Of a stretch of DNA of 64,000 nt, positions 840-62,644 are shown piece after piece. This DNA is from Phialocephala subalpina. Its lineage: Eukaryota; Ascomycota; Leotiomycetes; Helotiales; Mollisiaceae. The stretch spans positions 1,445,353 to 1,509,352 of the forward strand of contig FJOG01000008.1 of the NCBI GenBank assembly GCA_900073065.1, in the 5' to 3' direction. The notes below the pieces were generated by a model, which saw only the letters and a list, made by a program, of their open reading frames with translations, had not been told where the DNA came from and ran no database searches. The translations under genes and the position numbers were made by a program. How positions within the stretch are numbered: position 1 is the stretch's first letter; every line of letters begins with the position of its first letter.

Positions 840-3588
840 ATGGATCCACTGAGTCTCACAGGCACTCTCATCGCTGTCCTCCAGATCACCACCTCAGTCA
901 TTTCTGTGTGCTATGACTACCGTGCAGGTGTCGCATCGGCTTCTCGTGATGTTATTCAGATCACCGACTCCCTAAATGCGCTCAAGGACAGTCTCGATGC
1001 TCTCCTTCGTCTCGTTGAAACTTCGAGGTCGGGTGAGGACAGAGCACGGTAAGTCACCCTCTCAAAATCCCATCTCCATGTTCTTAATAGGGTGATGAGA
1101 TGTGGGCCCGTGGCACTGCTCTCTGTATTTGCAGCATTGTGCTCGATAAGCATGGGAGAGATGCCCTGACCAGCATATCGCAGGTTAGTCAATGTCGAAC
1201 TGCTAGCAAGAGAAGGTGGGGCATTGGAAAGCTGTCTACAGGAGCTGGAGAGATTGAAAGAGAAGCTAGAACCGGAAACTGGATGGAGAAAGGTGAAGAA
1301 AAGTTTGACATGGCCGCTCAAGGAGGGAGAGATGAAGAAGGCGTTGGCGGGGCTCGAGAGATACAAGAGCACGATGCAGCTTGCGATTTCGGCCGACCAG
1401 GCGTGAGTGTTTCTCTATCTCTTCCATCCCACCTTTATGTTAAAAAAAAATTTCATTTGAGAATCACTGACGCCAGGTAGAACATTGAGTCTCGCGATCA
1501 AAGATGACCTAGAGGATCTGACAGCGATGTTGCAAAAGCACACCTTTGGTAACGTCTCACATGTCCCCTCTTCTATTGACTGCATCATCCGTCACTACTC
1601 TCCTGCTTACTGCCCCATACAGACCAAACGCGTCAAGGCATCTTCAAATGGCTCGCGGCACCAGATCCATTCGTCAACCACGTTCTCAATCGGAAGAAGC
1701 GCCAAGGGTCCACAGGAACCTGGCTCCTCACAAGCAAGCAATACGATTCCTGGCTACACGGCAAAAAGTCTTTCCTGTGGCTGTATGGCATTCCTGGCTG
1801 TGGCAAGACCGTCCTGTGTTCCACGATCATCGAGCAACTCATCCGGTATTCCCAACAAGACGCTTCAATAGGCCTGGCGTATTTCTATTTCGACTTCAAC
1901 GATCCCCAGAAACAAGACATCGGCGCTCTCGCATGCTGTATAATCACTCAATTAGTATCCCAATGTCCCACGATTCCTGGAACACTTGCAGAGCTCTACG
2001 AGATGCGTCAGAATGACCGGAAGGCCATCGACGAAGAGATGTTTCTGTCAACCCTCCGATCTATCATCCTACTGTTCCACAGCGTCTACCTTGTCTTCGA
2101 TGCTTTAGATGAAAGCTCAAACTGTGACGAGACTCTACAGCTCATCCACCGTCTCAACTCTTGGGCCATTCCTCAATTGCACCTTCTCGTGACGAGTCGA
2201 CAGATCACATCAATCGAGGACTCCTTGCTGCCTCTCATCTCAGACAGCATATGCCTTCATAATTTCAAAATTAACAAAGATGTTCACGTTTACATTAGCG
2301 ACAAACTTGATCATGACCCAAATTTCATGAAATGGCCCTCGGATATTCGCAAGCAAATTACAATCAAGCTTGTCCAAGGCGAGGCCGGAATGTGAGAATG
2401 TCTGTTCCCATGAAAAGCAAAGCTAAAATACCTAGGTTCCAATGGGTTGTGTGTCAACTCGACATGTTACAGCGATGCTTATCGGTAGCTGCTGTCCGCA
2501 AAGCCCTGTCAGCAGATTTCCCAAAAGACCTGGAGGGTACATACGATCAGATATTGTATGGAGTCCAACAGAGCCATCAGTCAGAAGCCTTGAAGGTCCT
2601 GCAAGCACTCATCGCCACTGAGAAACCATTGACCCCGAAAGAGATTGTCGACGTTCTCGCGGTGGATCTTGATGCTGACCCACCGACCTTTGAACCTGAC
2701 GCAAGACTGATTGATCCTCGGAGCATATTGTCTGTCTGTCCGTCACTTATTACCACCAAGACGTACCGAAGACACGCCTATGATATCTATGCAAAGCCGA
2801 CTACAGTTCTACTCCTGTCTCACGCTTCTGTGGCAGATTATCTCGCTCAGCCGAAACCTCCAGGCTTGTCCCAATTTCAAATTTCGAAGCAATCTGCTCG
2901 ACGAATGCTGGGTCAGATATGCTTAGCGTATTTGATGGCATCCGATTTCAGGGACCTGAACAAGAAGAGTGTAGTTTTGAATTCGAAAGCTCATCCATTC
3001 TTACAACATGCTGTCCAATTCTGGCCGAACTACCTTCAACGGGCGACGGATGATCCAGACGACCGCCTAGATGAGGCGACCAGGAGCTTGACGCAAGCAT
3101 TTTTCGCAACCAGCAAGATGCCAAACGGAGGCAATTTCGCATTCTGGGTCGGCATGCTTATCCCTAATGCTCCAATCCACTACATCGCAAATACGCACCC
3201 TCTATACTATGCTGCTTCTTTCGGTCTCCTTGAGGTCGTCCAACTACTGCTCGATACCGAAAAGGGCATTGATATCAACGCGCTTGGTGGACGAGCTCAC
3301 TCTTCAGCCCTTCACGTAGCCACATTTCGAGACCATATCGATGTCGTTAAACTGCTCCTTGAACATGGCGCAGATCCCAACCTTCCCAATGAAGAAGAGG
3401 AACCGCCGTTATACTGGGCGATTGCTAATGGCAATCACGCAATGGTCGACTTGCTGCTTGCGAACGGAGCCGAGCCAAAAAACCAGCAACAATTCAATGA
3501 GATAGTCATGGCTCAATCGTACTCATTGTCCGATATGCCAGACTCACCATCTCACGACCCGTTTGACATGATGCTGAGGACTAAGTAG
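840..3588 (+). CDS. NACHT-ankyrin NLR-like protein (NLR1)
   Basis: Five exons fit in phase: 840-1048, 1184-1402, 1481-1548, 1623-2391 and 2436-3588, giving 805 residues. The N-terminal 165 residues or so are a helical domain beginning MDPLSLTGTLIAVLQ, of the kind that opens many fungal STAND proteins. A NACHT NTPase follows, with Walker A GIPGCGKT at about residues 221-228 and Walker B VYLVFDALDES near 325. A helical arm beginning FQWVVCQLDMLQR comes next. Ankyrin repeats occupy about 674-770 (SALHVATFRDHIDVVKLLL and a second copy). Fungal proteins with this layout are thought to act in non-self recognition or programmed cell death; the ligand cannot be told from sequence. The first half resembles the NLR gene at 12276-8968 in both domain order and intron position. 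No frame break is seen. Confidence 0.85.
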
Positions 3589-8967: not shown

Positions 8968-11900
8968 TCAAGATAAAAGAACCGATATTCTCATGCGCGA
9001 ATGCGCCTCAGACAACGATGGTGTCTGATCGTTTCCTCCTGCCTCAGCAGCCTCTAATTCTGGCTCTAGCTCTGGTCCCGATTCCGGTTCAATCTGGAAT
9101 ATCCTAGAAGGGTCCTTCGGGTCCAACATCTTTACATCAGAACACGGCTCAGCTCCATATTGGAGAAGAGCCGCTTCGATTTTTGTAAGATCTCGTTCTC
9201 TAAGATCACGTTCCTCGAGATATTCATTCGCATATTGAGAAGCGCATGCAAATTGCCTGCAAAGCCGAAGCGGACTGACGCCAGGAAGATGATTGAACGT
9301 AGCCAAGCGGGTACCCTTTCCCCATCGAATACCTTCCCTGTCATTCGTGCCGTTTGGATCTGCTCCAGCTTTCAACAGCGCTTCCACACCTTCGAGGTCC
9401 CAACATGCAGCTGCGATCTGTAACGGCGTGACCGCATAGCCTGAGATATTCGGATTCGCTCCCAATTGCAACAATTTTGCCATGGTACAACCCTTGTTCT
9501 TGTGACATGTATAGGCATAGTGGAAGCCAACAAACGAAAGGAGAGCGGACGAAGGATCGATGAAGCCGACACCGAAGTCCAGCAACACATCGAATGCTTC
9601 GGGTTCATCGTCAATTGCGAAAAAATCGACGATCGATCCTTGAAAATTGTAAGTGTTGACTTTACAATCCTCCACATATTCCACCTCATCGAGATATAAT
9701 TGGGTTTGCAACACATCTTGCACACTGATACGTTCTACAAACTTCTTCGCAAACTCGAAAGTGGGGTCCAGTAGCAGCAAGCTGGTTAGGATAGCGGCAT
9801 CTACGCTTTTGGACGGGGTTCTCCATGCCAATTTCCAAAACTGCCTTTCTGTGTAAATATTCCGGTCAAGAAAGACACCTAATGCGTCCTCGGCTCGCGA
9901 AGCGACTGTTGTGAAAGATGAGTAATGAGATCTCGAGGGGTCCAAGAGGTCGAAAACTAAAGCGCTTAAGTCATCATCGCAAGATATCTCACGAGCAAAT
10001 GAGTTGGTGAGAAGTATAGACGTTGTGACGCAAAAGGCGTTGAAATCCTCGTTGATAAGCCTCGCAATTTCCTTTTGTTTGGATGTATCATAGGAATCAT
10101 GCTCGAATGGACCATTCTCGAATAGACCGCTTGACTCAATAGTAAGTGCCCCCAGAATTACAGTCTTCGTTAACTCCAAGATTGTCTTCTCTTCCACGAC
10201 GGCGAAAAATGCTACTGAGGGGTTTGATATCCGATTCGAAGCTAAGAACTCCCAGACGGTGTAATGTGCAAAGGATGCAGATCGTATTGTGCATGTAGTT
10301 AACATTTTTCCATAGCATTTTTCCTCGGACATTACCGTAATCAGGCATCCGCATAGTTCTCGGAGGAGTTCTTCATTGAGCAAGTAGTTTCGTCCGGAAG
10401 GGCTCGACTCGCATATACTCTGTTGGACGGCTCGGAGTAATAGAGGACATGAGATATTGTGATTGTGCACTCGGTTATGATAATATATCCATTTCAAGGC
10501 CTCACGGACGAATATGCGGTCTTCATTGGGGACCGCCAGAAATATTCTCTCGTATGTCTCATCCAGGGTCTTTGGTAGATTTGCTAAGGCGTTCCTGATG
10601 ACATGTCCCTCTGGCTTAAGACGTTGCAGCGCATGGATCTGACACACTGCCCAACGGAACCTGTTCAACAAGTTAGAAAAGTGAGGGAAAAACGAGCGCT
10701 TTTAATCCCCTAGCATTGCTGGGGCTTTCTCGGACCAATCGCAAGGACGGTTATACACTGAGACCAGGAAGCTACACTTCAAGTAGTATCTCAGCCTTCC
10801 CTAGCCTCCACGGCCGTCCTGTTAAAACAGGGAGATTTTAGACGTTGGTTTGAAAATGAACTTACATTCCTTTTGCTTTGGTTGCTAATGCTTCCAGAAC
10901 TTCCTCAACTAAATGTGGCGCCCAATGTTTGAACGTTGGATTCGAGTCTAGTTGTGACCGAACGTAGAGCTTGATATCTTCGTCCAACAAAGGATTCAAC
11001 ATTGATACCGGCTCCGAAATCAACTCCATGACATTTTCGATATCGATATATTGTCGACTGGTTGCAAGCAACTGAATCTTCCCGAATCTCGAGTCGGTGA
11101 CCAAATCCCGAAGCACCTTTAGCAAATCATCTCTCGGCATGCTCTCGTCAATAGCATCAACAACGATGTATACATTCTCAAAGTTTGCAAGAATGGCTTC
11201 GAGAGCACGTAATAGCTCAGCCAGACTTGGTTCACCACCATGCTGATATAGCTCGTAGAGGTATGTTGGAACGTGATCTGCTTGGCGACAGAGTCGATCT
11301 ACCATCCAACGGAGGAAAGATGCTGCTTCATCCTGGTTGTGGCCGAAATAGCAGTAGTAATAGACGACCGCGCACTGTTTTGCTGATGAAACTTTGCAAT
11401 GCTCCTTGAGGCTTTCGATTAAATGAGATGCCAAAATTGTTTTTCCTGCTCCAGGGATACCATAGATCCAAACGCAGCGCGACTTGCCCTGGAGCCAATC
11501 TGTCCATTCGGAGGAGCGTAACATCCAATTGCCTGTCCCTGCCTCATATTGCTTACAGGCTCGATGGTGCAGTGAAGTTGGATCGGTAGCCTGGATCCAC
11601 TCACAAACTTGTCTCCGTTGGTTGTCTTGAATCACAGTCAGCGGTCAGCCTTGGTTGAAAGTACTTGGGCACTAGGGCATTCAAAATTATGCCTTCCTTA
11701 CCTGAAAGAATATCATGAATCTTCGTTGTCTGATTCTTGATACCCTTGATGTCGAGACTGTCTACGGCGTTAGTGCTCCTCGCATGAAAGATTGATCAAT
11801 CTTGGTAAAGGCATGCTAACTCACGCTGACTCTGTGGTGAGTGCCAAGCTTATAGTCGCTTTGAGCCTATTCAACTCCTCCACGAGCTTTTTGGGTCTGT

Positions 11901-24206: not shown

Positions 24207-27200
24207 ATGCCTAACTGGAAGACATACGAATCCTCCGTCCGACTTCTCTCTGCCATCGTCGCCGCTCATCCAGGCCTTAAGCTTAACTATGACGGTACGT
24301 GATACATTTTATTGCTCTCGGCGCCCCTTCTTCACCTCACCACCTTCATGCCATCTTCTGTCCTTCCGTTCCTTCACAATGGTTGTCCCTGATAATACTG
24401 TTTACAGAGGTCGGCCGCTACTATGGCGATGGTGCCAAGTACAAGTCTGTCTGGGACCGCATGAACCAGATCAGCAAGAATGCCAAGGTTCTTCGAGACG
24501 CAGTCGATGCTGGTCTCGACCCATTCACCATGGAGTTGAACGACGCACCGGCTGGCAAATCAAAGCCTCAAGGTAAACATGGTTGCACGAACGAGCCTCT
24601 TGCTTTCTGTTTGCACTGTTTTTCAATCCGCACATTTGCATATGTTATTTTGCACAGGTTCCCTTGTTGATTGTGGCCCAGACATCGCAGTCAGATTTGG
24701 AGGAGATTGCACGAAGTCTGCCATTGACAATAGATTTCGGCGCCTCAAGTCTGATGCAAAGCTCATCAATGATGCTATCAAGAATGGGATTGATCCTATT
24801 ACATTGAACATCGGAGACACCAAGGGAGAAGCCGCCATGAGTGGCAAGGGTTCTTCTTCAGGTCAGGCAACGAGAATCTCCCAGCACTCGAGAACACTTT
24901 ACACCTTTCATTTCGTCAGGCAGTCCATGTAGCAGGAGTACCACGCGTTGGTGCTAATGCTAATGGTTGATGCAGAGCTCGCAAGATGCTTCGGCAGTGA
25001 TTGCACAACAAGCGCGGTCCAAACCATATGGAATCGTCGTGTGCAACCAGCTGCAAAGAGAATCCGCGAAACCTTGAAGAATGGCGGAGATCCAAAGGAC
25101 CTGCCTCTTGCCTTTGGCTCAGGGGGTTCCAATGGTAGTTCTTCCGAGTCACTTTTCTACACTCTACACACTGCACATTTGTTTTTTTGCTTGCGAAGAG
25201 TCGTCAGTCTTAGACAAGCATTGATCACCACCACAGGCATTGTCAAGGCCTATGGTGGTGACTGCACTAAGAGAGGCTTGGATGCCCATCTCTCCCGCGA
25301 CATCATGCCCAACGTCAAGGCCATTCGAGATGCTCTTTCACGAAATGAGGATTCGAATGAAGTTACCTTAGTTGTGGGTGTTAGGAATGGCAAGGCTGGC
25401 AAGGGTCAGATCATCAAACTCCCATCATACGCACTCTACACGTTTTCCTTTCGCTTGGAAAGATCGTCCACGAGAATGTACCCAATGATTTGGTACTTCC
25501 ACAGAGAAACTTATGTTGATATTGCACAGAGGTCGTGGCATGCTTCGGTAGCGGTGTTACCAAAACAGGCCTGCAACATTACTTCACTCGCAATATTCAC
25601 CCCAATGTCAAGCTAATCCAAGCCGCTCGCGAATCAAAGGAGGATCCAAAGGACCTCATTTTGGTCGAGAACGTCAGAGATGGCAAGCCAGGCAAGGGTC
25701 AGCAGGCAGAATCATCCCCGATCAAGCACATTACACGTTTTCATTATGTTCTATTGGCAATCATAAGTTGCCAGCTTGTTGACTGATGACATTACAGAGA
25801 CCGTCAAATTCTATGGCAGTGAATGCACCCAGAGTGCACTGCTGAACCATATGAAGCGCGACATCACTCCAAATGTCAGAGCTCTCAAGCAGGCAGTCGA
25901 GAACCAGCAAGATCCCAAGGAGGTGGTCTTGATGGAGAACGTCCGCACCGCAGGAGCCGGAAAGCGTCGGCTGATTGTTCTTTTTTATTTCGAGCACATT
26001 GCACCTTTTCCTCCCGTCACATTGTCTTGTTGTTGTTGCTGCTACTTAGGATAATTGATTGATCTTGTTCCAGAAATCGCTCGCTGCTATGGAGAATCAG
26101 CCTCAGCAGTCGCTATCAGACATGTCTTCAATCGCACCATCAAGCCAGACGTGAAGCTCATCCTTGACACCTTAGCTGCCAAAGGCAATCCCGAGAAAGT
26201 CATGTTGGTGTCGCTCCAGAAGCTCGCTGGTAGTGATGGAAGTAGCGGTCAGACATTTTCCAACCATTCCAAACACATTGCACGTTTTCCTTATGTTCAG
26301 ATCGCTCGAGTGCAGAAAGCATATTGATGTCAAGCAGAGATCGCTCGTTGCTATGGTGCACCCACCAAGGGCAAGGACGTCAGAAACTTCTACGACCGCA
26401 CCATCAAGCACGACGTTCAGCTGATTCTCAAGACCTTGGAAGGTGGTGGCAATCCTCTTGATGTGGAGCTTGCCTATTGCTCGAAGCAGAAAGGTGGCGG
26501 CGGTGCCCCCAAGGGTCAGAAAGTTTTTTGAGTTGATTTTCTGCACAGCACATTCCTTTTTGTTTTGTTTTTTTCAAACTCCCGAGCAGTCTTAATGACC
26601 ACCATCACAGAGATCTCAAAGCACTTCGGAGGCAATTTGAAGGGCGACAGCTACCGAAAGGCTATTGATATCAACATCAAGCCCATTTCCAAGGCTATGG
26701 TCAATGCTGTGAAGAATAGAGAGGATCCTCTTCAAATTCAGATCGGCGGCGAATCAAGCAAGGGTCAGAGCTGCGTCCTAGACAAGCACACAGCACGTTT
26801 TCATTCTGTCAATTCGTTCTGCATATGAACAAGCAATAATGACATCCCCTACAGAGACGGCAAAGCATTACGGTGGAGGCTTGAAGGGCAATGCTCTTCG
26901 CGAGCGGTTCCGACGAGACATCACTCCGTTTGTGCAACCCATGGTTGATGCTGTTCGAATTGGGCAGGATCCCCTTCAAACTGTTCTCATCAGCGAAGGC
27001 GGCAAGGGTCAGATTTGCTTCTCAACCTCAGAACACAGCGCACGTTTTCCTTCTGTCACACAATTGCACAATCTACTTTTGAGCTGGAGTTGATAAATTC
27101 CCTTACAGAGACTGCACGCTGCTTCGGAGGTGGCCTGAAAGGCAATGCCCTCGGCATGCAATTCCTCCGCAACATCAAGCCCAACGCCAAGCTGATGCTC

Positions 27201-29893
27201 GAGGCACTTGAACGTGGTGAAGACCCGTACGAAACTGTCATCGTGGCCGGCGATGTGAAGGGTGGTGGCGGCAAGGGTCAGATTCTTCATCTTCAGCACC
27301 ACAGCACGTTTTCATATTGTCAATTGTGGAGAGATTGAGATCGATGTTAATATCGTCCAGAGATTCAGAAATGCTTCGGCTCTGATGCTACCGTCGGCGG
27401 CCTCAAGTTCCAGTTCGCAACTCGCATCAAGGCTGACGTCAAAATCGTCAATGATGCGAGACAGAATGAGATTGACTGCAAGGACATCACCCTAGGAGGC
27501 GGTGTGAAAAGCGACAATGGTCTGGCATTTAAGATTCGTTTTGCAGCACCACGGCACATTTCTTTTACGTTGGAGTTCTGTATATTGACTCTTCAACAGA
27601 GATGGCCACCTTCATGGGCGAGGGAATCACCGGGAAGGCAATCTCCTGGCAATTTTATGATCGCTTCAAGCCAATCGGAGACCGAATGGCCGAGATGAAG
27701 GCAAATGGCGAGGACCCCGGAAAGATCGACCTTGACAGTGTCAAGGGAGCTCCTGGAAAGGGTCAGGGTCGAAAGAAGGGTCAGGCAGTTCTTCAGCACT
27801 TTTTTTGCCAGCACAGCACAGCATATTTTCATTTGCATTCAAGTTCTGAGTATTGACTCCTGGATAGAGGTCGCGCGAATCATGGACAGTGATTCCACTC
27901 CAAGAGGCTTCCACTTCCAGTTCTTAAAGCGTTACAAGCCCATTGGCAAGCGACAGCTCGAAATGATTGACGCCGGCAAGGACCCCAAGGACATTGACCT
28001 TGACAGTATCAAGGGAATTCGGGCCATTCGTACTAAGAAGGGTCCGAAGGGTCAGATTGCAGCTTTTCAACATTTCCTTACCAGCACATTTTCCTTGCAT
28101 TACACAGCTAGTATTGACTCCTCGACAGAGATTGCCAGCATCATGGGCTCCGACGCCACTCCCAACGGGATCAGATTCCAGTTCACAGACCGCTTCAAGC
28201 CCATCGCCAAGCGCCAGCTGGAGATGAAAGGGGCAGGTCTGGATGGAAAGGACATCGACCTTGATAGTGTCAAGGGAGGCAAGGGTCAGGTAGCTTGCAT
28301 GAAGCACATTTCCTTTCAGCACGTTTTCCTTCAGTGAACAAACTCACCCAGAAATCAACATTGATGATCCCGCAGATATCGCCAAGTACTTCAGCTCAGA
28401 TGCTACAGGTGGCGGCATTGGCTTCCAATTCCGAACCATCAAGGCAGATGCAAAGCGTTAGAAGGCTTGCGCTGACAATGGCGGTGATCCTCTGATTTTA
28501 CGCATGGGAGCAGGTGGACCAGGCGGCAAGGGTTAGAACTTGACTTTCAATCCATACTCCACAGCACAGCACGTTTCCTTCTGTTCAGACCTCACAACGA
28601 GAACTTGATATTGATGTTTCCCCACAGATATGGCTAAATACATTGGCAGCGACTGCACTAAGGGCGCTTTGGAGTGGCAATTTCGTCGCTACAGAGCTGG
28701 CGCAAAGTTGCAGGTCGAGGCTGTGAAGAATGGTCAAGATCCGAAGGATATCAATGTTGATGTCAATCCACAGGGCAAGCCTGATGGAAAGAGCAATCGT
28801 ACTGCTTTTTGATTTGTTCCTTTTCATTTCAGCACATTATAGCACAGCAGCAGTGTTCTCGGGACTGGTATTGACGAGACCACAGCAATCGCCCTCCGCA
28901 TGGATGATGGTACCACTGCGTATGCTCTCCAGCATCGCTTTCGGGACATCAAGAAGACGGCTCAGGAGATGAACGAGGGTACTTTGTCTTACCACGTCCC
29001 CAAGTTTTCCCGAGTTCTTGCACAGCACAGCACTGCATAAATGATTTGGATTCGAGATTTTGATATTGACTTCCTTTACAGCCATTGCCAAGCACTACAA
29101 TACAGATAATCCTGCTGATGGCCTCGCCACGGGTGTTGCTGTTGAGCATCAGTTCCGACCTCTCAAGAAGAAGGCTGAGCAGATGAAAGCTGGTACCACG
29201 TGGACCCCAAGCTCAACCTCTTCGCTCTCCTTTTGATCTTTACACTTTTCATTGGGTCGAAATTTGCTTTTGCTCCCCACCACCACCGTCAAAATTATGA
29301 GAAGAACATTCGCTAACTATTTTACAGCCATTGCCCGTGAGTATGGTGATGGCGTCACAGGTAAAGCTGTCTCAACCTATTTCGAGCGCGCGAAAAAGGA
29401 TCCCTCTTGGCAACGTGCTAACAATTCTTCTCCAGGTGCTGATGGTGCAACTCCAGCCAAGGCCAAGCGTGGTGGTGGAGCCGGTCGCGGTCGTGGTAAG
29501 AAGGCCGCTGCTCCCCCTACCAACGGTAATGGTGTAACTGGTGGTTCCGGCGAGGACGACGACGAGGAGGGTGGTTTTGACGAGACGCCTTCTAAGAAGA
29601 CTCCCTTGAACAAGACCAAGGGCGGTCGTGTTGCCAAGCCTTCTTCTGGTCGTCCCAAGAAGGCCGTTAACTACCAGGAGTCGGATGACGAGGAGGACGA
29701 CATGAAGCTTGTCAAGTATGAGGGTGGTGATGTGAACGGTGGTGGATTCCAAGACATCAATTATGGCAATGGTCATAATGGTAATGGTAACCACTCCTTC
29801 CAGGAGCCTGACTTCAGCCAAGGTTACGTTAACGTTGCCGAAGGTGGTGAGAACGAGACCTGGTACGATGCCGGGGACAACGATGAGGCCTAG
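24207..29893 (+). CDS. Exon-per-module tandem repeat protein with AT-hook tail
   Basis: I do not recognise a named family for the whole protein. Twenty-one exons keep one frame: 24207-24294, 24408-24572, 24682-24861, 24976-25134, 25237-25404, 25530-25697, 25798-25965, 26074-26247, 26338-26514, 26611-26763, 26855-27007, 27109-27276, 27361-27519, 27600-27761, 27868-28050, 28129-28284, 28376-28531, 28628-28798, 28886-28978, 29082-29192 and 29328-29893. This makes 1225 residues if the TAG at codon 889 (28459-28461) is read through. Exon 1 gives one N-terminal helix (VRLLSAIVAAHPGLKLNYD). Each later exon gives one module of the pattern E-I-A-x-x-[FY]-G-x-[DG]-x-T..., then a basic helix, then DP.....L and a Gly/Lys linker. 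The tail has GRGRGKK and SGRPKKA plus acidic runs. A nuclear DNA- or chromatin-binding role is inference. All inner exons are phase 1-1, so isoforms with different module numbers are possible. Confidence 0.8.
24408..29442 (+). repeat. Array of 20 paralogous module exons with paralogous introns
   Basis: Twenty exons of 93-183 nt (the last one longer) each hold one diverged copy of the same module. Introns of 78-135 nt separate them. Neighbouring copies are most alike: exons 10-12 share GG.LKG(N/D), exons 14-16 share KPI..R..EM and DIDLDSVKG-like ends, and exons 5-7 share (N/D)VR.GK.GK-like ends. Most introns carry a block close to CAGCACGTTTTCCTTCTGT (clear at about 25736, 26279, 26791, 27041, 27303 and 28319). 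So exon plus intron was the unit of duplication. Exons 19 and 20 are shortened copies without the DP segment. Confidence 0.85.
28376..28531 (+). other. Module exon 17 with in-frame TAG
   Basis: The exon is 156 nt, phase 1-1 and otherwise aligned with its neighbours. TAG at 28459-28461 replaces the CAG found at the same place in exons 15, 16 and 18. Its donor is GTTAGA where exons 15 and 16 have GTCAGA and GTCAGG. Both differences are C to T before A. Including this exon would end the protein at 888 residues. Skipping it would keep the frame and give 1173 residues. Confidence 0.8.
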
Positions 29894-36147: not shown

Positions 36148-39100
36148 TTAGCCGCTGCCGGACAGCAGCTTTACGACCTCGACGTGCCCGCGCCCTGAGG
36201 CCCAATGCAGTGGCGTTAGTCCGTCTTTATTAGCCGCCGCCGGATCGGCCCCTTTCTCGAGCAGTAACTTGACGACCTCGACGTGCCCGCTCCCTGAGGC
36301 CCAGTGTAGTGGCGTCCATCCGTATGTATCAGCCGCCGCCGTATCGGCCCCCTTCTCGAGCAGTAGCTTGACGACCTCGACGTGCCCGCTCCCTGAGGCC
36401 CGGTGTAGTGGCGTCCATCCGTTTTCATCAGCCGCCGCCGTATCGGCCCCCTCTTCGAGTAGCAGCTTGACGATAGCCTTGTGCCCTTCCTTGGCGGCCC
36501 ATAATAGCGGTGTCCGATTGTTGTCACCTTTCGAGTTGACCTCAACCTTCTCTGTCCTAAGCAACAGCTCGACGATAGCCTTATGACCTCTACATGCTGC
36601 TAACGATAGTGGCGTGTATCCCCCAGCATCTGGATTTAGATTTAGGTTATATGCCGGGTCTGCTGAGAGTAATTTCTCCAGTACTTCGACAAGATTCCAG
36701 TTGCAGGCTGAGAAAACTGGACTACCGGAATCCGAAGTCAAAGATCTTGTAGAGAACTCGGGGAATTTTGCGGCCGCGCGAAGCCAATCTTGAAATGTCG
36801 TTGAGCCTGATCCCTCGATGATCCAATCAAGTAACTCTTTTGACACTCCGTGACTTTGCCGGTCCTCTTTGCTCAGCTGAGCACAATGCTCTCCCCAGAA
36901 CCTGTGAGAATACTGGAGAAATGTGTTGCTCCGCATTGCTACTTCATAAGCAGCCCTGTCCTGAGAAGATATGTACTTTAAACACGTCCGGGCGACCTGG
37001 GCGTGGCATTTTGCGTCGCTATAATCCGACTGATGCTCTCCTTGCAAGTAGTCTTTCACCGACACATGGGCAAACTCCAGCGTTCCCCTTTCCGTTTCAA
37101 CAATGAAATCTTGGGTAAGTTGACGAATGTATGCGTGATCAATGCTTTCATATCCGGGGCTATTATCCTCGTTAAAAGCCACAGCTGTCGTAACGGCGGC
37201 CATTGAAAAGGGTTGCTTGCGGCAGAGCAGCATCTTGTAGATCTTGCTCGCATGGCAATGTTCGAATGTACCCTCGGCAGTGTTGCGCTTGAAGATATCA
37301 TCGTAAGCGATGTTCAAGTCTTTTTCGACTGCGGCTGAGCTAGTGTCGAGTTGGTCGAGATGTCTTTTAACGGTGTCCCGGAGGAGAAAGGGAGTTCTCG
37401 GTTTCAAAAAGAAAGAGAGTTGCAGTTGGACCCAGCGAAACCTTGATGTATGTCAGCTTCCTAGTAGGCTAGTAGCAGTCGAGGGACTTGTCGTACATTC
37501 CGCCAGCTCTCCTACAGAGAATTTCAATAAGCTTATCCTCGAGATCTCGGTGTCTGCCTTTTAAGATTCTCTCGTCCTCCTCTTTATCGTTGACCTCGGT
37601 GGTAATATACGTAATCATATCGGTATCAGACAACGATTGGCCGAGGTCGACTATAACAGCGTTGGAAAGCTTTTCATAGACGTGGACTTCGTGCCGACTA
37701 GACACGAGCAGCTCAAGTCCGCCCGGCATAACCCGAGAAGCATCTCGCAAGGCTTTTAGTAGTTCCTTGGGCTCGTCACACTCATCCAGAGCGTCGATCA
37801 TTATTCTGAGCTTGATCCCTGATTCTAAGATTCCGTGCAGTAATGTCTCACATTTGGTGAAGGAGAAGGGTTGCAAATCTACTGAATCTCCTCCCGCATT
37901 TATGTAAGCATTCAGCACATACGCAGAGATCTCACCCTTCATAGGATCGTATGCTGCTTGTCGGAGGAGTGCTTGAAGCACTGACTTATATGAGTGTTTA
38001 GAGTTCAGATCTGTTCCTCTAGAGCAATAAAAGTATGCAAATCGGCGACCAGGGTATAAAGAAGCTCTGTCCAGATGCCATTGGATGATTCGAGCTCTAT
38101 AATCTAATGCATTAGCTCTCCTCTGTAGTATTATTGGAAATACTCACAATAGTGTCGACTTTCCGGTACCGGCTGTTGACAATCAGCATCTTATCCAACA
38201 TTCGTAGATTATACTAACTTGTGCCACGAAGCCAGAGAGTCCGGCAGTCTGATGCCAGTTCCGGCGAGGACTAGTCTGTGAATTTCGGATCATCCAGCAG
38301 CCATCGCCCGCATGCTCGATACTTTAGGGCGACTCCAGTCCTCTGAAGAGCATCATCGTGAGCTTGTTCCGGTCTATATTCCGATATCCACTTTTTGACT
38401 TTCCCGTGTTGGTCGCTCTCCATCCTACAGCGGTCAAAGGTACTTTTGCAGGTTCCATGATAGGTAGATATATTCCTAACCAGATCTCGCCAGGTCACGG
38501 CTCTTTCCTGTGTCTTGAAGACTTGGGCTGGTTTATCGTGAGACAGGCTTACGTCCAGCGTTGATGAAGAGTCATACCTATACCTCCATCAGAAGCCCAA
38601 TTGACCAGTTCAACTTCCAACTCCAGGATCTCAATGTATAACTTGATCAAGTCAGACTCCAACGGCTCGAACTTGTTCAAGATATCATTCCTCATTGTCC
38701 CTAGAAACAGGGATTCAACGTTCGCCCAGTAGCTAAGGTTCGAGGTTATGGCGTCTAGGTCTCTAAGCGCTTCCCGAAGCTGGGTAGATTCGCCCAAGCA
38801 TGCCTATTAATAGAAAAAATTCGCCTATGCTTTAACTATTGAGATCTGGGAGGCAGCAGCTTACCTCTAATACCACGCAAAAGCCCCGCCAGACAGTTGG
38901 CGCAATTCTGTGGGGATCAAAATTCGCGGCAGCTGCTACAATTTCCTTGAATTGGAGAATGGACCTGATAGTTGTTTCGATCACGCGGGGAATCCCCTTA
39001 TTTTCCCGCATTTTTGACCCTGCGAATTCTAATAAGCCTGCTGGATCACTTTGACTCTGATTCTTGTGCCTGGACTTGATCTTCTCTAGCTTCGTGTAAA

Positions 39101-57232: not shown

Positions 57233-60200
57233 ATGAAGCTCCTTCCCGACCTGAGGAGATTCCTTCCTGATCCAACAGGAATGCGTCAATTTTTGAATGA
57301 ACTTCGATATGACGATTACGAGGAGAGCGCGCAATTCAAGAACGTGCAAACGATCCTGAATTCAACCAATCAGAACCGAGAAACCAAAGGCTCCATCTAT
57401 TTGGAAGCATTTTACGACCAGCAATTGCAGCAAACATCACCACCAAAGGACCTCTCCATGCGAAGTCAGAGCGAGGAACCAGAAACGAAGAAGAGGAAGC
57501 GTTTCGTGGTTGATATGGAGGAGTTGGAGGAAGCAGCAGTAAGTTCACGCGAGGCTGACGTTCTGTGAATCCTCGGCTAGTCCCGCTAACGTTTTTGACC
57601 ACAAGCGCGTCTTGAAGGCACGTAGAATCAAGCCTGTTAAGCAAACCAAGACGCCTGCTTTCAAGGAGGTGATATCGTTGGTGGACGAGGAGAGCGAGTA
57701 CGAATCCATACCTCCCTGGGTGAGGAACCCCTACGACATATGGTCTTCAGAGCAGCGTGGGCAATACTAGTACGTTATTCGCAGGGCCGCCATCTCCTCC
57801 TTTGGGCGCAAATTCTAACGGCGAACAGCAAGGACAAAAACAAAGCGAAGGCGAAGGAGGACGGGAGACTCGCCGCCGCTGCTAGAAATGCCCAACAACC
57901 TCAATCGGAGAAGGAAGGACCTTTCACGACCATACAGGATCGGTTCGTTTTCCCCGGTGGCGCAAACTGCCTGCTACATGCTAAGATTTTGGATAGTCGA
58001 GACGAACATGAGAAGAAGCAACGAGAGGAATCAGCAGCGGTCAGCAGAACATTGTATGAATGCTCTGGATGGGTGGGGTTGTGAGCATCTGCTAACATAG
58101 ATACCCAGCTCGCAGGTGAATATTTACTTGCACAGAGGAGATTCTATGGTCAGACCTCCACCCTCCTCCCTCCTCCCTTTCCTCCTGTTACCATGCTAAC
58201 ATGTATTACAGCCGAAGCCCAAAGATATCGGCCCCAAGCCGAGGAATACATTCCACAACGGCGACACGCCGCAGAGTAAAGGATGGACAGCTCCAAGAGC
58301 CGATGCGTCTGCAGGTCGTCAACCTTTCAAGAACCCTCCGTTCACAGCACAAGACCCACGTAAGAGACGGCGCATCGAGGACGGCTCGATTATCACAGAT
58401 GGCTCTATTATCAGGGATGGTACCTGGCGATTACCTATCGACGTGGATGGCGGTACATCAGACAGGCAGAGACAGGATTCCGTGGCAAGATCAGGACACA
58501 GCCATACTTTCAATGATCCGCAAAGAAAACAAAGTAGTGGTGATTTGGGTATCGAAGAATATCGAAGACAGGAGATAGTTGTGAATCCTAAGCTACCTAG
58601 ATCCAGGCAACGAACGAGCAACACTGCTGGTGGCTATTCGAATGGTGGTGGTGCCCAGAAGTTCAAGGGGCCGAATCGCGATGTATACAACAAACGTGGT
58701 GATCTTGAGGACGCTACGGACCCTATACAATCCGACCACGATCTTGAATTTGCTAAACAACGGTCCTCACACCCAGAGGTACAACTTCCAAGCAAATTAC
58801 TTGAAGACGGGGGATATTCCCAATCACAAGTCTTCGGCAGTACTGAAGGAAAGCAGAAGAGCAAAAGCGCCCGTGCTTCGGCGGACCTAGAAACCTCACA
58901 CTATTTTCACTCGAACCGTAGCGACTTCCAAGGCCTTGGACCCTCGAATGCTCGTTCTGCCGTCAAGCCGGTGGCAAGTGGGAGAGTTTCGCAGACGACG
59001 AACCAAGCAGGCGGGGCTGCAGGTCGCAAAGCTCTTGCTGCTATTGATCTTGAATCTAGCATCGATGAGCTACAGAACGATTCGGCGGATTATCAGGCGC
59101 AGTCAATAGCATTGAAGCTCTTGGCTGGTGACAAGACCTATGATATGGAACGATCACCTAGCCATCAGGAATCTATCGACATTGATGATTCTGACGAAGA
59201 CAATCCTCAAACAAACATTGCACCGACTAAATTCGGTCCTTCACACAAGGTGAAGTCTAAGGATGGCGTCTTGAACGGGAGATATAAGCTACGCCAGCTG
59301 TTTAGTCGTGAGAAAATCTGGCTCCGCGACACAGACGCAAAGACCTGGATGATGGTACTCCATAAAGAGGAGCAGTGCCTGGAAGTAATTAATGAGCAGG
59401 ACGATGTCGAGCAGAAACTCATGATAAAGCCTTTCAGCTTTTTCGAAATGCACGAGGAATCTACCAAGATTGTCGTTCAAAAACACCGGGATCACAATTC
59501 TTCAAACGCTACGCAGATTTGGATGGAGTTCTCAGGCCCCAAGCATCGTGAGAATTTTGCCAATGATATGAAGTCTGCCTATGATCTCAAAGCTCTTCGC
59601 AAGCCCAGGTTAGTACATTTGTATACCCAATTAGTGTCCAAAAACTCACATCGTGTAACAGCAAGGAATATTTTGACAGGGTCTTTGATAAGGCTCTCGA
59701 GAGCTTACAAAACCCCCCGGATCCCCGCCCCGACACGAAGACAAAAAGACCTCGAGATGAGGAGCAGGACGACGAGCTCCAACTCGCAATTGCCAAATCC
59801 GAGAGAAAGTACGGCGCCATGTTGAAGGAAAAGCAGGAATCGAAGCGCCCCCGAATTGCTGGACCTGATGACCATCAGCCCAAACAGTATGACGAGAAAG
59901 GCTCTTCTAGAACGCCAGGTCTGGCTAAAAGCATGAAAGCGGAACCAATGGACGTGGACGGCGACGAAGATCGGCATCGCTCTTTCAGACATCATCAGCT
60001 CCTAGAAGAAGTCCACCCTACGACTTTCTACGGTGCTTGTACTTCAGACCCAGCTGATACGGGTATCTCCCACGGAACACGCTCGTCAACGAGAGTTGCG
60101 GGCACTCGTGCAGCAGCTTCCCCAGCGGTGAAATACCGAAGTCCATCGCCTGAAATCCCTGATGGATGGACAAAGCTCAACCCCGATTGGGCTAAGGAGT

Positions 60201-62644
60201 ACAATTGGCGTGGCTCAATCGTTTATCCTCCTCAAGGAAGAAGCAGGGCCACTGTAGACAAGCAAGACATCTACAGGCTCGACGAAGGAGAATTCTTGAA
60301 TGATAACTTGGTCACTTTCTACCTTCGCTGGCTAGAAAACCGACTAGAAGACAACAATCCGAACGTGGCGAAGAGAATCTACTTCCACAATTCTTTCTTC
60401 TTCGAGAAACTCAGCAAACCTGCAAGAGGTAGCAAAGATGTTATCAATTACGAAGCTGTCAAGAAATGGACTGCCAAAGTTAATCTGTTCGACTACGACT
60501 ATATCGTTGTACCTGTGAATGAGAATCTTCATTGGTATGTCGCTATTATTTGCAACGCTCCGAAGCTTGCCAAAGACACACAAGCTGCCGAGAAAGCCAA
60601 GTTGGAACCTGAATCCCAAGACGAAGCAAAAGCGGACGATTCGGGCAAAACCACACCTGAGACGAAGCTTGCTTCGCCCCTGCCAGACTCTACACTTACT
60701 CCTCAGACCCAGGGCATGTCGTTGCATGACAAAATTGCGGAAGATTTTGAGCCCCCCAAGCCTGTTAGCGAGGTAAAGGCTGACCAGAAATCAACATTAT
60801 CACCGGAGAATGACCCTTCCCACCATGGTGGTGAAAGCTCGCCTCCCTGTGTCGTCTCCGATATTCTCCCAGCCGACGCAAAGATAACCCAGACGAAGAA
60901 AGGAAAGAAGAAAACTCCGCAACCACGAAAATACAACCCTTCGGATTTCCGAATCATCACTCTAGATTCATTCCACGGATCACATTCGCCGTGCTGTACC
61001 AAATTGAAGAAATATCTACTTCAAGAGATGAAGACGAAGCTTCATATTGAGGCAGAAGATCCCGGTACCGTTGGCATGACGGCCAAAAACATTCCGGTCC
61101 AAAGCAATTATAGCGATTGTGGTCTATTTTTGCTCAACTACATTGATGAATTTTTGAAGAACCCAGACGGCTTCATTCATGACATTCTTCAGAACTCTCT
61201 CGATATCGAAAAGGAATGGCCCCCAGCATCAGAAACGCGGAATAGAGTTCGAGACCTCTTGTTCGAGCTTCAAAGAGAGCAACATGGTGGAGGAAAGCCA
61301 GAAAAGGATGTTGGCAAGACTAAATCTACTGCAAAGGTAGAGAAGAAAATTGGCCTAAGCTCAACTAGTAGGACCTCCGTTGAACCTTCTCGATCTTCGG
61401 AGCCATCACCTGTGCCTGGCAACCAGGAAAAGTCCAATGCCGCCCCTGACACAGTGGGCAGCAAAAAGGCGCAATCGGCAAAGGCAGCTAAACCAGAGCC
61501 GGTGAAATCCAAGCCCGTCAAGTCTGTCACTGTGCCTTGTGGTGATCGCAATACGGAGCCGCGTCGCAGAAATGCTCCAGAAACGGCACAGAAGTCTGAC
61601 AAGGGCATAGGTGGAATGTACTCCGCCATCGCAGGCGGTATCACTGGATCATTCACCACTATCAAAAATGGGCTTTTCGGCACGTCACGAAGCACCTCTG
61701 AAGATTCGAGCCGCAAGCCAACACAGAATCAGGAGATTGTCGAAATCGAAGATTCGACCCAGCACATCAGCTTCCCTGCAGAAGCTGACATTTCCAAGGG
61801 CAAGGCTCGTGAAATCAAGGATTCGCAGGCTCCCTCGTCAGGGAGAAGCTCCATGGAGAATGAGCGCCCGCCCTCGAGAAACACAACCAGCTCGAATGAA
61901 CCCATCGAAATTCCAGATACCCCTGAAAGACCGAAAGCTGTGCGGGAGCGCAGTATTCAGAAGCAAGGCAGCGATGTGGACTTATGGGAATCCCCGACTC
62001 CGCCCGCCGACCGTTGGCGTGACGATCTTCGAAATGGGAGGGGAGAGGAGGCGCTACGCAGACATTTCCCTGTTAAGCAACTTGGAAGCCCATCACCAGA
62101 GCTCGAGGAAGATGAGATGGATCTCGTCTCTCCTTTTCCAGTTCCTGAGTCTCAGCGGGAGGCCACTAGTCATGATGGAACAGAATCCGAGATGCTCTTT
62201 TCTAACGATGAGCCAAATGCTGTTGCTGGCTCGCGCAGCAACCCGGATGGGTCGCTCCTGTCGTTACCTCCTGCAGCCTCTACTCCAGTCCCCACTTCTG
62301 AGAAAGACCGCCGTGAAAAGTCTGCATCACCCTCTCCTGCTTCCAGACACCAAGTCTCGCCGGGAGACAGCACGTCGAACATTCCCAAAGGAACGAAGCG
62401 AAAGAGCTTGGCGACCGATGATGCGAGCAGCGGGCATTATACGAGACGTGCGTCGGAGTACCGTGATGGTTCTCCTAATACTACCGTTATTGAAAATACT
62501 GGCAAGAAGAGAAAGGTGGTGGTTGACGATGAGCGCTTTCAATATCAAAGACATTCTCCCGGACCAGACCTACAACGTCTTGATCCTTCCGATAGGGCTA
62601 TCATTGGCAAGCATCATAGTTCTTCTCATCCACGACGTTCATAA
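57233..62644 (+). CDS. ULP2: Ulp2-type SUMO-specific cysteine protease
   Basis: Six exons fit in phase: 57233-57538, 57606-57769, 57829-58039, 58101-58148, 58212-59608 and 59662-62644, giving 1702 residues. Exon 4 is only 48 nt and is chosen because it alone keeps phase 0 on both sides. The long N-terminus is disordered and basic. At about 590-705 (NGRYKLRQLFSREKIWLRD...) there is a compact mixed region that could be a PH-like fold. The C48 protease domain starts near residue 915 (IYRLDEGEFLNDNLVTFYLRWL). The triad is His1002 (NLHWY), Asp1144 (TLDSFH) and Cys1195 (NYSDCG), with the oxyanion Gln1189. An insert of about 110 residues separates His from Asp, as in Ulp2/SENP6-type enzymes. The role is removing SUMO, mainly poly-SUMO chains, in the nucleus. 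Assigning the first exons to this gene is likely but not proved. Confidence 0.88.

Follow-up and report, generated by a model that had tools for sequence, protein, structure and literature searches.

How does a fungus with small introns come to carry a gene in which each of twenty exons encodes one copy of the same module, and how is the transcript of such a gene turned into protein? In animals, exon-per-module arrays as long as this one are well known, and the first-pass annotation had considered a one-module-per-exon gene with small introns unusual in a fungus. This is supported by our literature search, in which titles and abstract openings yielded no described case of tandem or duplicated exons in fungi or of fungal Myb-like arrays. 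The gene lies in the window, by which we mean the whole stretch of 64,000 nucleotides of Phialocephala subalpina DNA that was analysed. Our answer, to which we give about an even chance, is that the gene consists of stepwise-duplicated module exons and makes a long protein by ordered splicing aided by a predicted intron enhancer. What it offers is an exon-per-module array in a fungus with small introns, whose synonymous sites retain almost no memory of the duplications.

Joining of GT...AG borders in silico rebuilt the gene as 21 predicted exons on the plus strand, from the ATG at 24207 to the stop at 29893. All 20 introns are of the GT...AG type and 78-135 nt long, and the 19 internal exons are, as first described, multiples of three in phase 1 on both sides (19/19). 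The correspondence between exons and modules likewise holds in silico: 20 of the 21 exons (exons 2-21) encode one module each, and these modules align. Exons 2-20 encode 31-68 residues, and in exon 21 the module takes up about the first 28 residues, followed by a Gly/Arg/Lys-rich and then an acidic tail. The last three modules, in exons 19-21, are short, with the GxDP part absent. Exon 1 supplies 29 N-terminal residues and no module; the idea of a helix-1 offset, in which exons would combine helices 2-3 of a domain with helix 1 of the following domain and exon 1 would supply the initial helix 1, was rejected, as exon 1 scored 7.0 against the module profile and shuffles scored 9.0 ± 1.7 (1857 of 2000 as high). 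The exons of the gene model are as follows.

24207..29893 (+) gene model, 21 exons, start to stop codon (exon joining and codon score)
24207..24294 (+) exon 1, N-terminal 29 residues; profile match not above shuffles
24408..24572 (+) exon 2, module 1
24658..24861 (+) exon 3, module 2
24976..25134 (+) exon 4, module 3
25237..25404 (+) exon 5, module 4
25530..25697 (+) exon 6, module 5
25798..25965 (+) exon 7, module 6
26074..26247 (+) exon 8, module 7
26338..26514 (+) exon 9, module 8
26611..26763 (+) exon 10, module 9
26855..27007 (+) exon 11, module 10
27109..27276 (+) exon 12, module 11, used for the structure model
27361..27519 (+) exon 13, module 12
27600..27779 (+) exon 14, module 13
27868..28050 (+) exon 15, module 14, with relative P0001 in another assembly (homologue search)
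28129..28284 (+) exon 16, module 15
28376..28531 (+) exon 17, module 16, in-frame stop inside
28628..28798 (+) exon 18, module 17
28886..28978 (+) exon 19, short module 18 (module alignment)
29082..29192 (+) exon 20, short module 19 (module alignment)
29328..29893 (+) exon 21, short module 20 with Gly/Arg/Lys-rich and acidic tail

The claim that a single frame runs through all 21 exons stands in one part and fails in another. Codon usage was scored after training on seven Pfam-matched ORFs of the window (four being fragments of a single PurL gene), and in 21/21 exons the assigned frame has the highest codon score; exon scores range from 0.12 to 0.48 and the mean best-frame score of the introns is 0.12, so that a lone weak exon is not told apart by this score alone. 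The frame is, however, broken by a TAG in exon 17, and if all 21 exons were joined, translation would stop at codon 903 out of 1239, with four more exons and the tail lying beyond it.

28459-28461 (+) in-frame TAG in exon 17 (gene model, frame scan)
28457..28462 (+) predicted, possible in-phase alternative donor GTTAGA (border AGC|GTTAGA), overlapping the TAG

The TAG contradicts a single linear product containing all exons. It would either be bypassed, by skipping of exon 17 or by the in-phase internal donor, or be a recent lesion. Exon 17 is 156 nt long, so its skipping would preserve the frame and remove the TAG, and use of the candidate donor at 28457 would shorten the exon to 81 nt. A decaying allele, in which the TAG recently ended the gene in this strain, would account for an in-frame stop ahead of four exons and the tail, but we regard it as quite unlikely: the TAG is the sole stop before the end of 1,239 codons, the codon score stays in frame around it (0.44 before, 0.27 behind), the GGDP signature is intact behind it, so that codon score and module signature are preserved on both sides, and the in-phase donor overlaps the stop itself.

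The modules appear to be ancient copies of one another. Among exons 3-17 their mean amino-acid identity is 28.7%, rising to 65% for exons 15/16, and the fourfold sites of shared residues, counted over the same exons with exons 2 and 18-21 left out, are identical in 249/758 comparisons (32.8%) versus 30.7% expected by composition. The modules are old, with synonymous sites close to saturated, and the combination of fourfold sites near chance with the retention of residues such as GxDP indicates that the protein is under constraint. Modules resemble their neighbours most, with a mean identity of 36% versus 25% at a distance of at least 5 (0/5000 permutations as high), pointing to stepwise local duplication. 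Adjacent exons are homologous and share the same phase at both ends in 19/19 cases, as expected of tandem exon duplication, and it is likely, judging from these alignments, that one exon-plus-intron unit was duplicated in tandem, step by step, to build the array. Duplication of such a unit produces phase-1 symmetry by itself, so the symmetry loses its force as an argument for combinatorial joining, which is how it had initially been used.

The modules of exons 2, 3, 17, 18, 19 and 20 (within 24408-29443) lack a residue midway along the long helix that is present in those of exons 4-16 and 21. This pattern hints at two module subfamilies, of which the inner one may have been expanded.

The duplications took the introns along, so that the locus offers some 15 replicate introns for a natural experiment, in which the parts kept amid drift point to the splicing needs of the gene. 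Introns 3-17 have in common the element CACAGCACRTTTTC, absent from the first-pass annotation, which lies 23-37 nt into the intron. Its sites, as placed by a motif finder, are:

24897..24910 (+) intron element, intron 3
25169..25182 (+) intron element, intron 4
25434..25447 (+) intron element, intron 5
25729..25742 (+) intron element, intron 6
25997..26010 (+) intron element, intron 7
26276..26289 (+) intron element, intron 8
26544..26557 (+) intron element, intron 9, weak: fails RCACVTTT
26789..26802 (+) intron element, intron 10
27036..27049 (+) intron element, intron 11
27300..27313 (+) intron element, intron 12
27550..27563 (+) intron element, intron 13
27817..27830 (+) intron element, intron 14, weak: fails RCACVTTT
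28080..28093 (+) intron element, intron 15
28315..28328 (+) intron element, intron 16
28565..28578 (+) intron element, intron 17

The element carries 17.3 bits over 14 columns, versus 11.2 ± 0.3 (maximum 12.3) in 60 dinucleotide shuffles, and in pairwise comparison its copies are 70.9% identical across the whole 14-mer, rising to 78% in the 10-base core; these statistics refer to introns 3-17, picked after the alignment had been seen, with introns 1, 2, 18, 19 and 20 left out and one site per intron forced by the motif finder. The CAC and TTT columns are the same in 14 or 15 of the 15 introns. Around the element the introns have drifted: identity over positions +7..+22 is at chance (28.0% versus 27.9% expected), and the 16 bases upstream of the element reach 30.2% versus 27.6% expected. 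The 16 bases downstream are a little above chance (35.8% versus 29.2%), indicating that the constraint is not restricted to the 14-mer. As both the fourfold sites and intron positions +7..+22 have drifted to about chance, the module and the intron element both look constrained.

The pattern RCACVTTT has 20 plus-strand matches in the window, 15 of them within the 1967 nt of the 20 introns, and four on the minus strand, counts that are descriptive since the pattern was derived from the motif itself. It occurs in 14/20 introns (twice in intron 16), being absent from introns 1, 9, 14, 18, 19 and 20, and in 0/4 PurL introns. In the fungus's own genome CAGCACGTTTTCNTTNTGT, allowing one mismatch, is found at three places, all in this gene, and its reversed control at one. 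The short core GCACRTTTTC occurs 132+137 times versus 85+83 for its reversed control; being common elsewhere in the genome, it is not private to the gene. A search of Rfam gave no match at gathering scores.

The element has a nearly fixed position relative to the donor, from which it lies 30.1 ± 3.6 nt away; the distance to the acceptor is more variable (52.1 ± 12.2 nt). This spacing argues against the element acting as DNA, that is, as a protein-binding site spaced along the gene, perhaps for the gene's own product. One copy per unit inside the gene would suit such a role, but DNA binding by the product lacks support (see below), and we consider this very unlikely.

The splice signals were also compared with those of control genes. 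GTCAG is the donor of 11/20 introns, and the 20 array donors match the consensus at a mean of 4.95 of 9 positions versus 6.0 in seven control donors, a modest weakness; beta-tubulin intron 1 (donor GTGGAT, 208 nt, border uncertain) was kept out of this donor control. A CTRAY branch-like site is present in 4/20 array introns, with TTRAY in 14/16 of the rest, and in control introns CTRAY is found in 4/4 of PurL, placed by eye and then checked by script, and 3/4 of beta-tubulin, where the uncertain intron 1 is counted as the miss. Retention would bring an in-frame stop in 15/20 introns. Introns 4 (25135-25236) and 15 (28051-28128) are multiples of three with no in-frame stop, and their retention adds 34 and 26 residues, respectively.

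Comparison of element and donors with well-studied introns suggests that the element is likely to be a common splicing enhancer beside suboptimal donors. The exons would be spliced in order into one long multi-module protein, with splicing aided by the element in introns 3-17. A U1-associated RNA-binding factor could recognise the element some 30 nt past each suboptimal donor and might thereby activate the array introns as a set; when the factor is absent, the retained introns would mostly end the frame. That one trans-acting factor reads CACAGCACRTTTTC about 30 nt past each donor and switches about 15 introns jointly, the duplicated unit having carried its own control element, is a possibility that we advance tentatively. 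If true, a single splicing switch would govern the module-wise assembly of this fungal gene.

A precedent is the Mer1 regulon of Saccharomyces cerevisiae, in which, according to the excerpted text of the source, Mer1 binds to a short enhancer within introns whose 5' splice sites are non-consensus, their splicing relies on the bound factor, and Nam8 is needed (PMC6380292). The array resembles the Mer1/Nam8 regulon, as described there, in having a short shared intron element beside non-consensus donors, with the qualification that the donor weakness here is modest. Unlike the Mer1 regulon, where those excerpts place the enhancer AUACCCUU in four genes, a different element, CACAGCACRTTTTC and not AUACCCUU, recurs here through most introns of a single gene. 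By this comparison the array introns may work like Mer1 introns but are not Mer1 introns. Should the element be an enhancer, it would be an example of an intronic enhancer shared between introns in a setting other than yeast meiosis.

It is also conceivable that splicing is constitutive and ordinary, the element being the usual pyrimidine tract plus shared descent, with no special factor and one long repeat protein as the product. Introns this small, with a fixed phase, are in keeping with plain intron definition, which the authors of a fungal splicing study, in the excerpts of that article, propose to prevail (PMC3925392). The TTTTC within the element may be a pyrimidine tract of the ordinary kind, and identity in the pyrimidine-rich bases that follow is slightly above chance. 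The CAC columns, however, are conserved as much as the T run, the sequence upstream of the element is near chance, and RCACVTTT occurs, within the window, mainly in this gene and is absent from the four PurL introns; on this evidence we judge the constitutive reading somewhat unlikely.

The enhancer reading also differs from the first-pass proposal of a combinatorial locus, in which alternative joining yields many proteins that vary in how many modules they contain and in what order. Skipping any of the 19 internal exons, all of them symmetric, would leave the frame intact, and skipping of exon 17 would dispose of its TAG; the symmetry, however, is expected from duplication itself. In the excerpted account of alternative splicing in 23 informative fungi, intron retention makes up 61% and skipped exons 3% of events (PMC3925392). 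Docking of the Dscam kind through the consensus element found no support: the best duplex of the element (-22.4) is no better than those of shuffled motifs (-21.6 ± 1.9, 12/40 as low, in a repeat at the same step of an earlier comparison with 20 shuffles at a coarser step), and the search for conserved intron structure gave 0 pairs. With skipped exons this rare in the excerpted fungal data, the shared element having no partner and no conserved intron structure being found, the combinatorial product set is unsupported and we consider it unlikely. The pairing of the consensus element and the intron structure give no sign of a Dscam-like selector. What the array has in common with Dscam is an exon repeated in tandem, with the copies sharing one frame; it is unlike Dscam in the lack of any sign of mutually exclusive choice, in the element having no partner, and in its fungal host and introns of 78-135 nt.

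The family to which the modules belong was sought by profile, sequence and structure. Pfam gave nothing above the cut-off for exons 1-16, exons 18-21, exons 1-2 and the 20 single modules, the families below the cut-off (E 0.11-0.27) including no Myb, and exon 21 alone also had no match. NCBIfam had no match to three ORFs, and a PDB sequence search found nothing better than E 0.44. The model of a 56-residue single module (exon 12) is weak (pLDDT 74.6, pTM 0.50) and consists of a short helix and a 24-residue helix; a model spanning exon 15, intron 15 and exon 16 is also weak (62.3, pTM 0.34), and fold searches with these weak models gave no usable match. The modules of exons 2-20 have net charges of 0 to +6 and are thus mildly basic, and the SGRPKK stretch in the Gly/Arg/Lys-rich tail is reminiscent of an AT-hook. 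The modules resemble Myb/SANT and other helix-turn-helix repeats in being helical and mildly basic, with a short and a long helix in the model, and differ from Myb/SANT in having no Pfam, NCBIfam or PDB sequence match. The DNA-binding system that had been suggested therefore finds no backing from Pfam, PDB or fold searches; a possible DNA-binding role is suggested only by the helices, the mildly basic modules and the Gly/Arg/Lys-rich tail with SGRPKK, and is unproven. The protein would be a chain of helical repeats that ends in a Gly/Arg/Lys-rich and then an acidic tail, possibly a nuclear scaffold.

Protein searches of the fungus's own genome with exons 1-2, 4-16 and 18-21 returned 3, 16 and 11 matches, all at this locus, with the proviso that such searches could miss divergent short exons. 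The sole candidate relative, P0001, is a stretch of 56 aa found in three contigs; its identity to exon 15 is 78%, across 68% of the query. This degree of identity indicates that P0001 comes from another genome, and hence that at least the exon 15 module exists elsewhere; the sampling of related loci comprises this one relative of one exon. In a search for a viral relative of exon 15, seven stretches matched the pattern and none was confirmed.

ORFs with Pfam matches to NACHT/NPHP3_N and ankyrin repeats, which are usual parts of fungal NLR-like genes, flank the gene on both sides, and a Ulp1 ORF lies further downstream:

2332-3588 (+) NACHT/NPHP3_N or ankyrin-repeat ORF (Pfam)
8968-10671 (-) NACHT/NPHP3_N or ankyrin-repeat ORF (Pfam)
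10862-11635 (-) NACHT/NPHP3_N or ankyrin-repeat ORF (Pfam)
36148-37407 (-) NACHT/NPHP3_N or ankyrin-repeat ORF (Pfam)
37469-37981 (-) NACHT/NPHP3_N or ankyrin-repeat ORF (Pfam)
59819-62644 (+) 941-aa ORF with Ulp1 (Peptidase_C48) domain at residues 158-449 (Pfam)

The 941-aa Ulp1 ORF has no further Pfam match at E 0.001. Upstream of the gene, the segment 22001-24000 shows a strong bias of C over G (GC skew -0.225), a bias like that of CT-rich fungal promoters or leaders.
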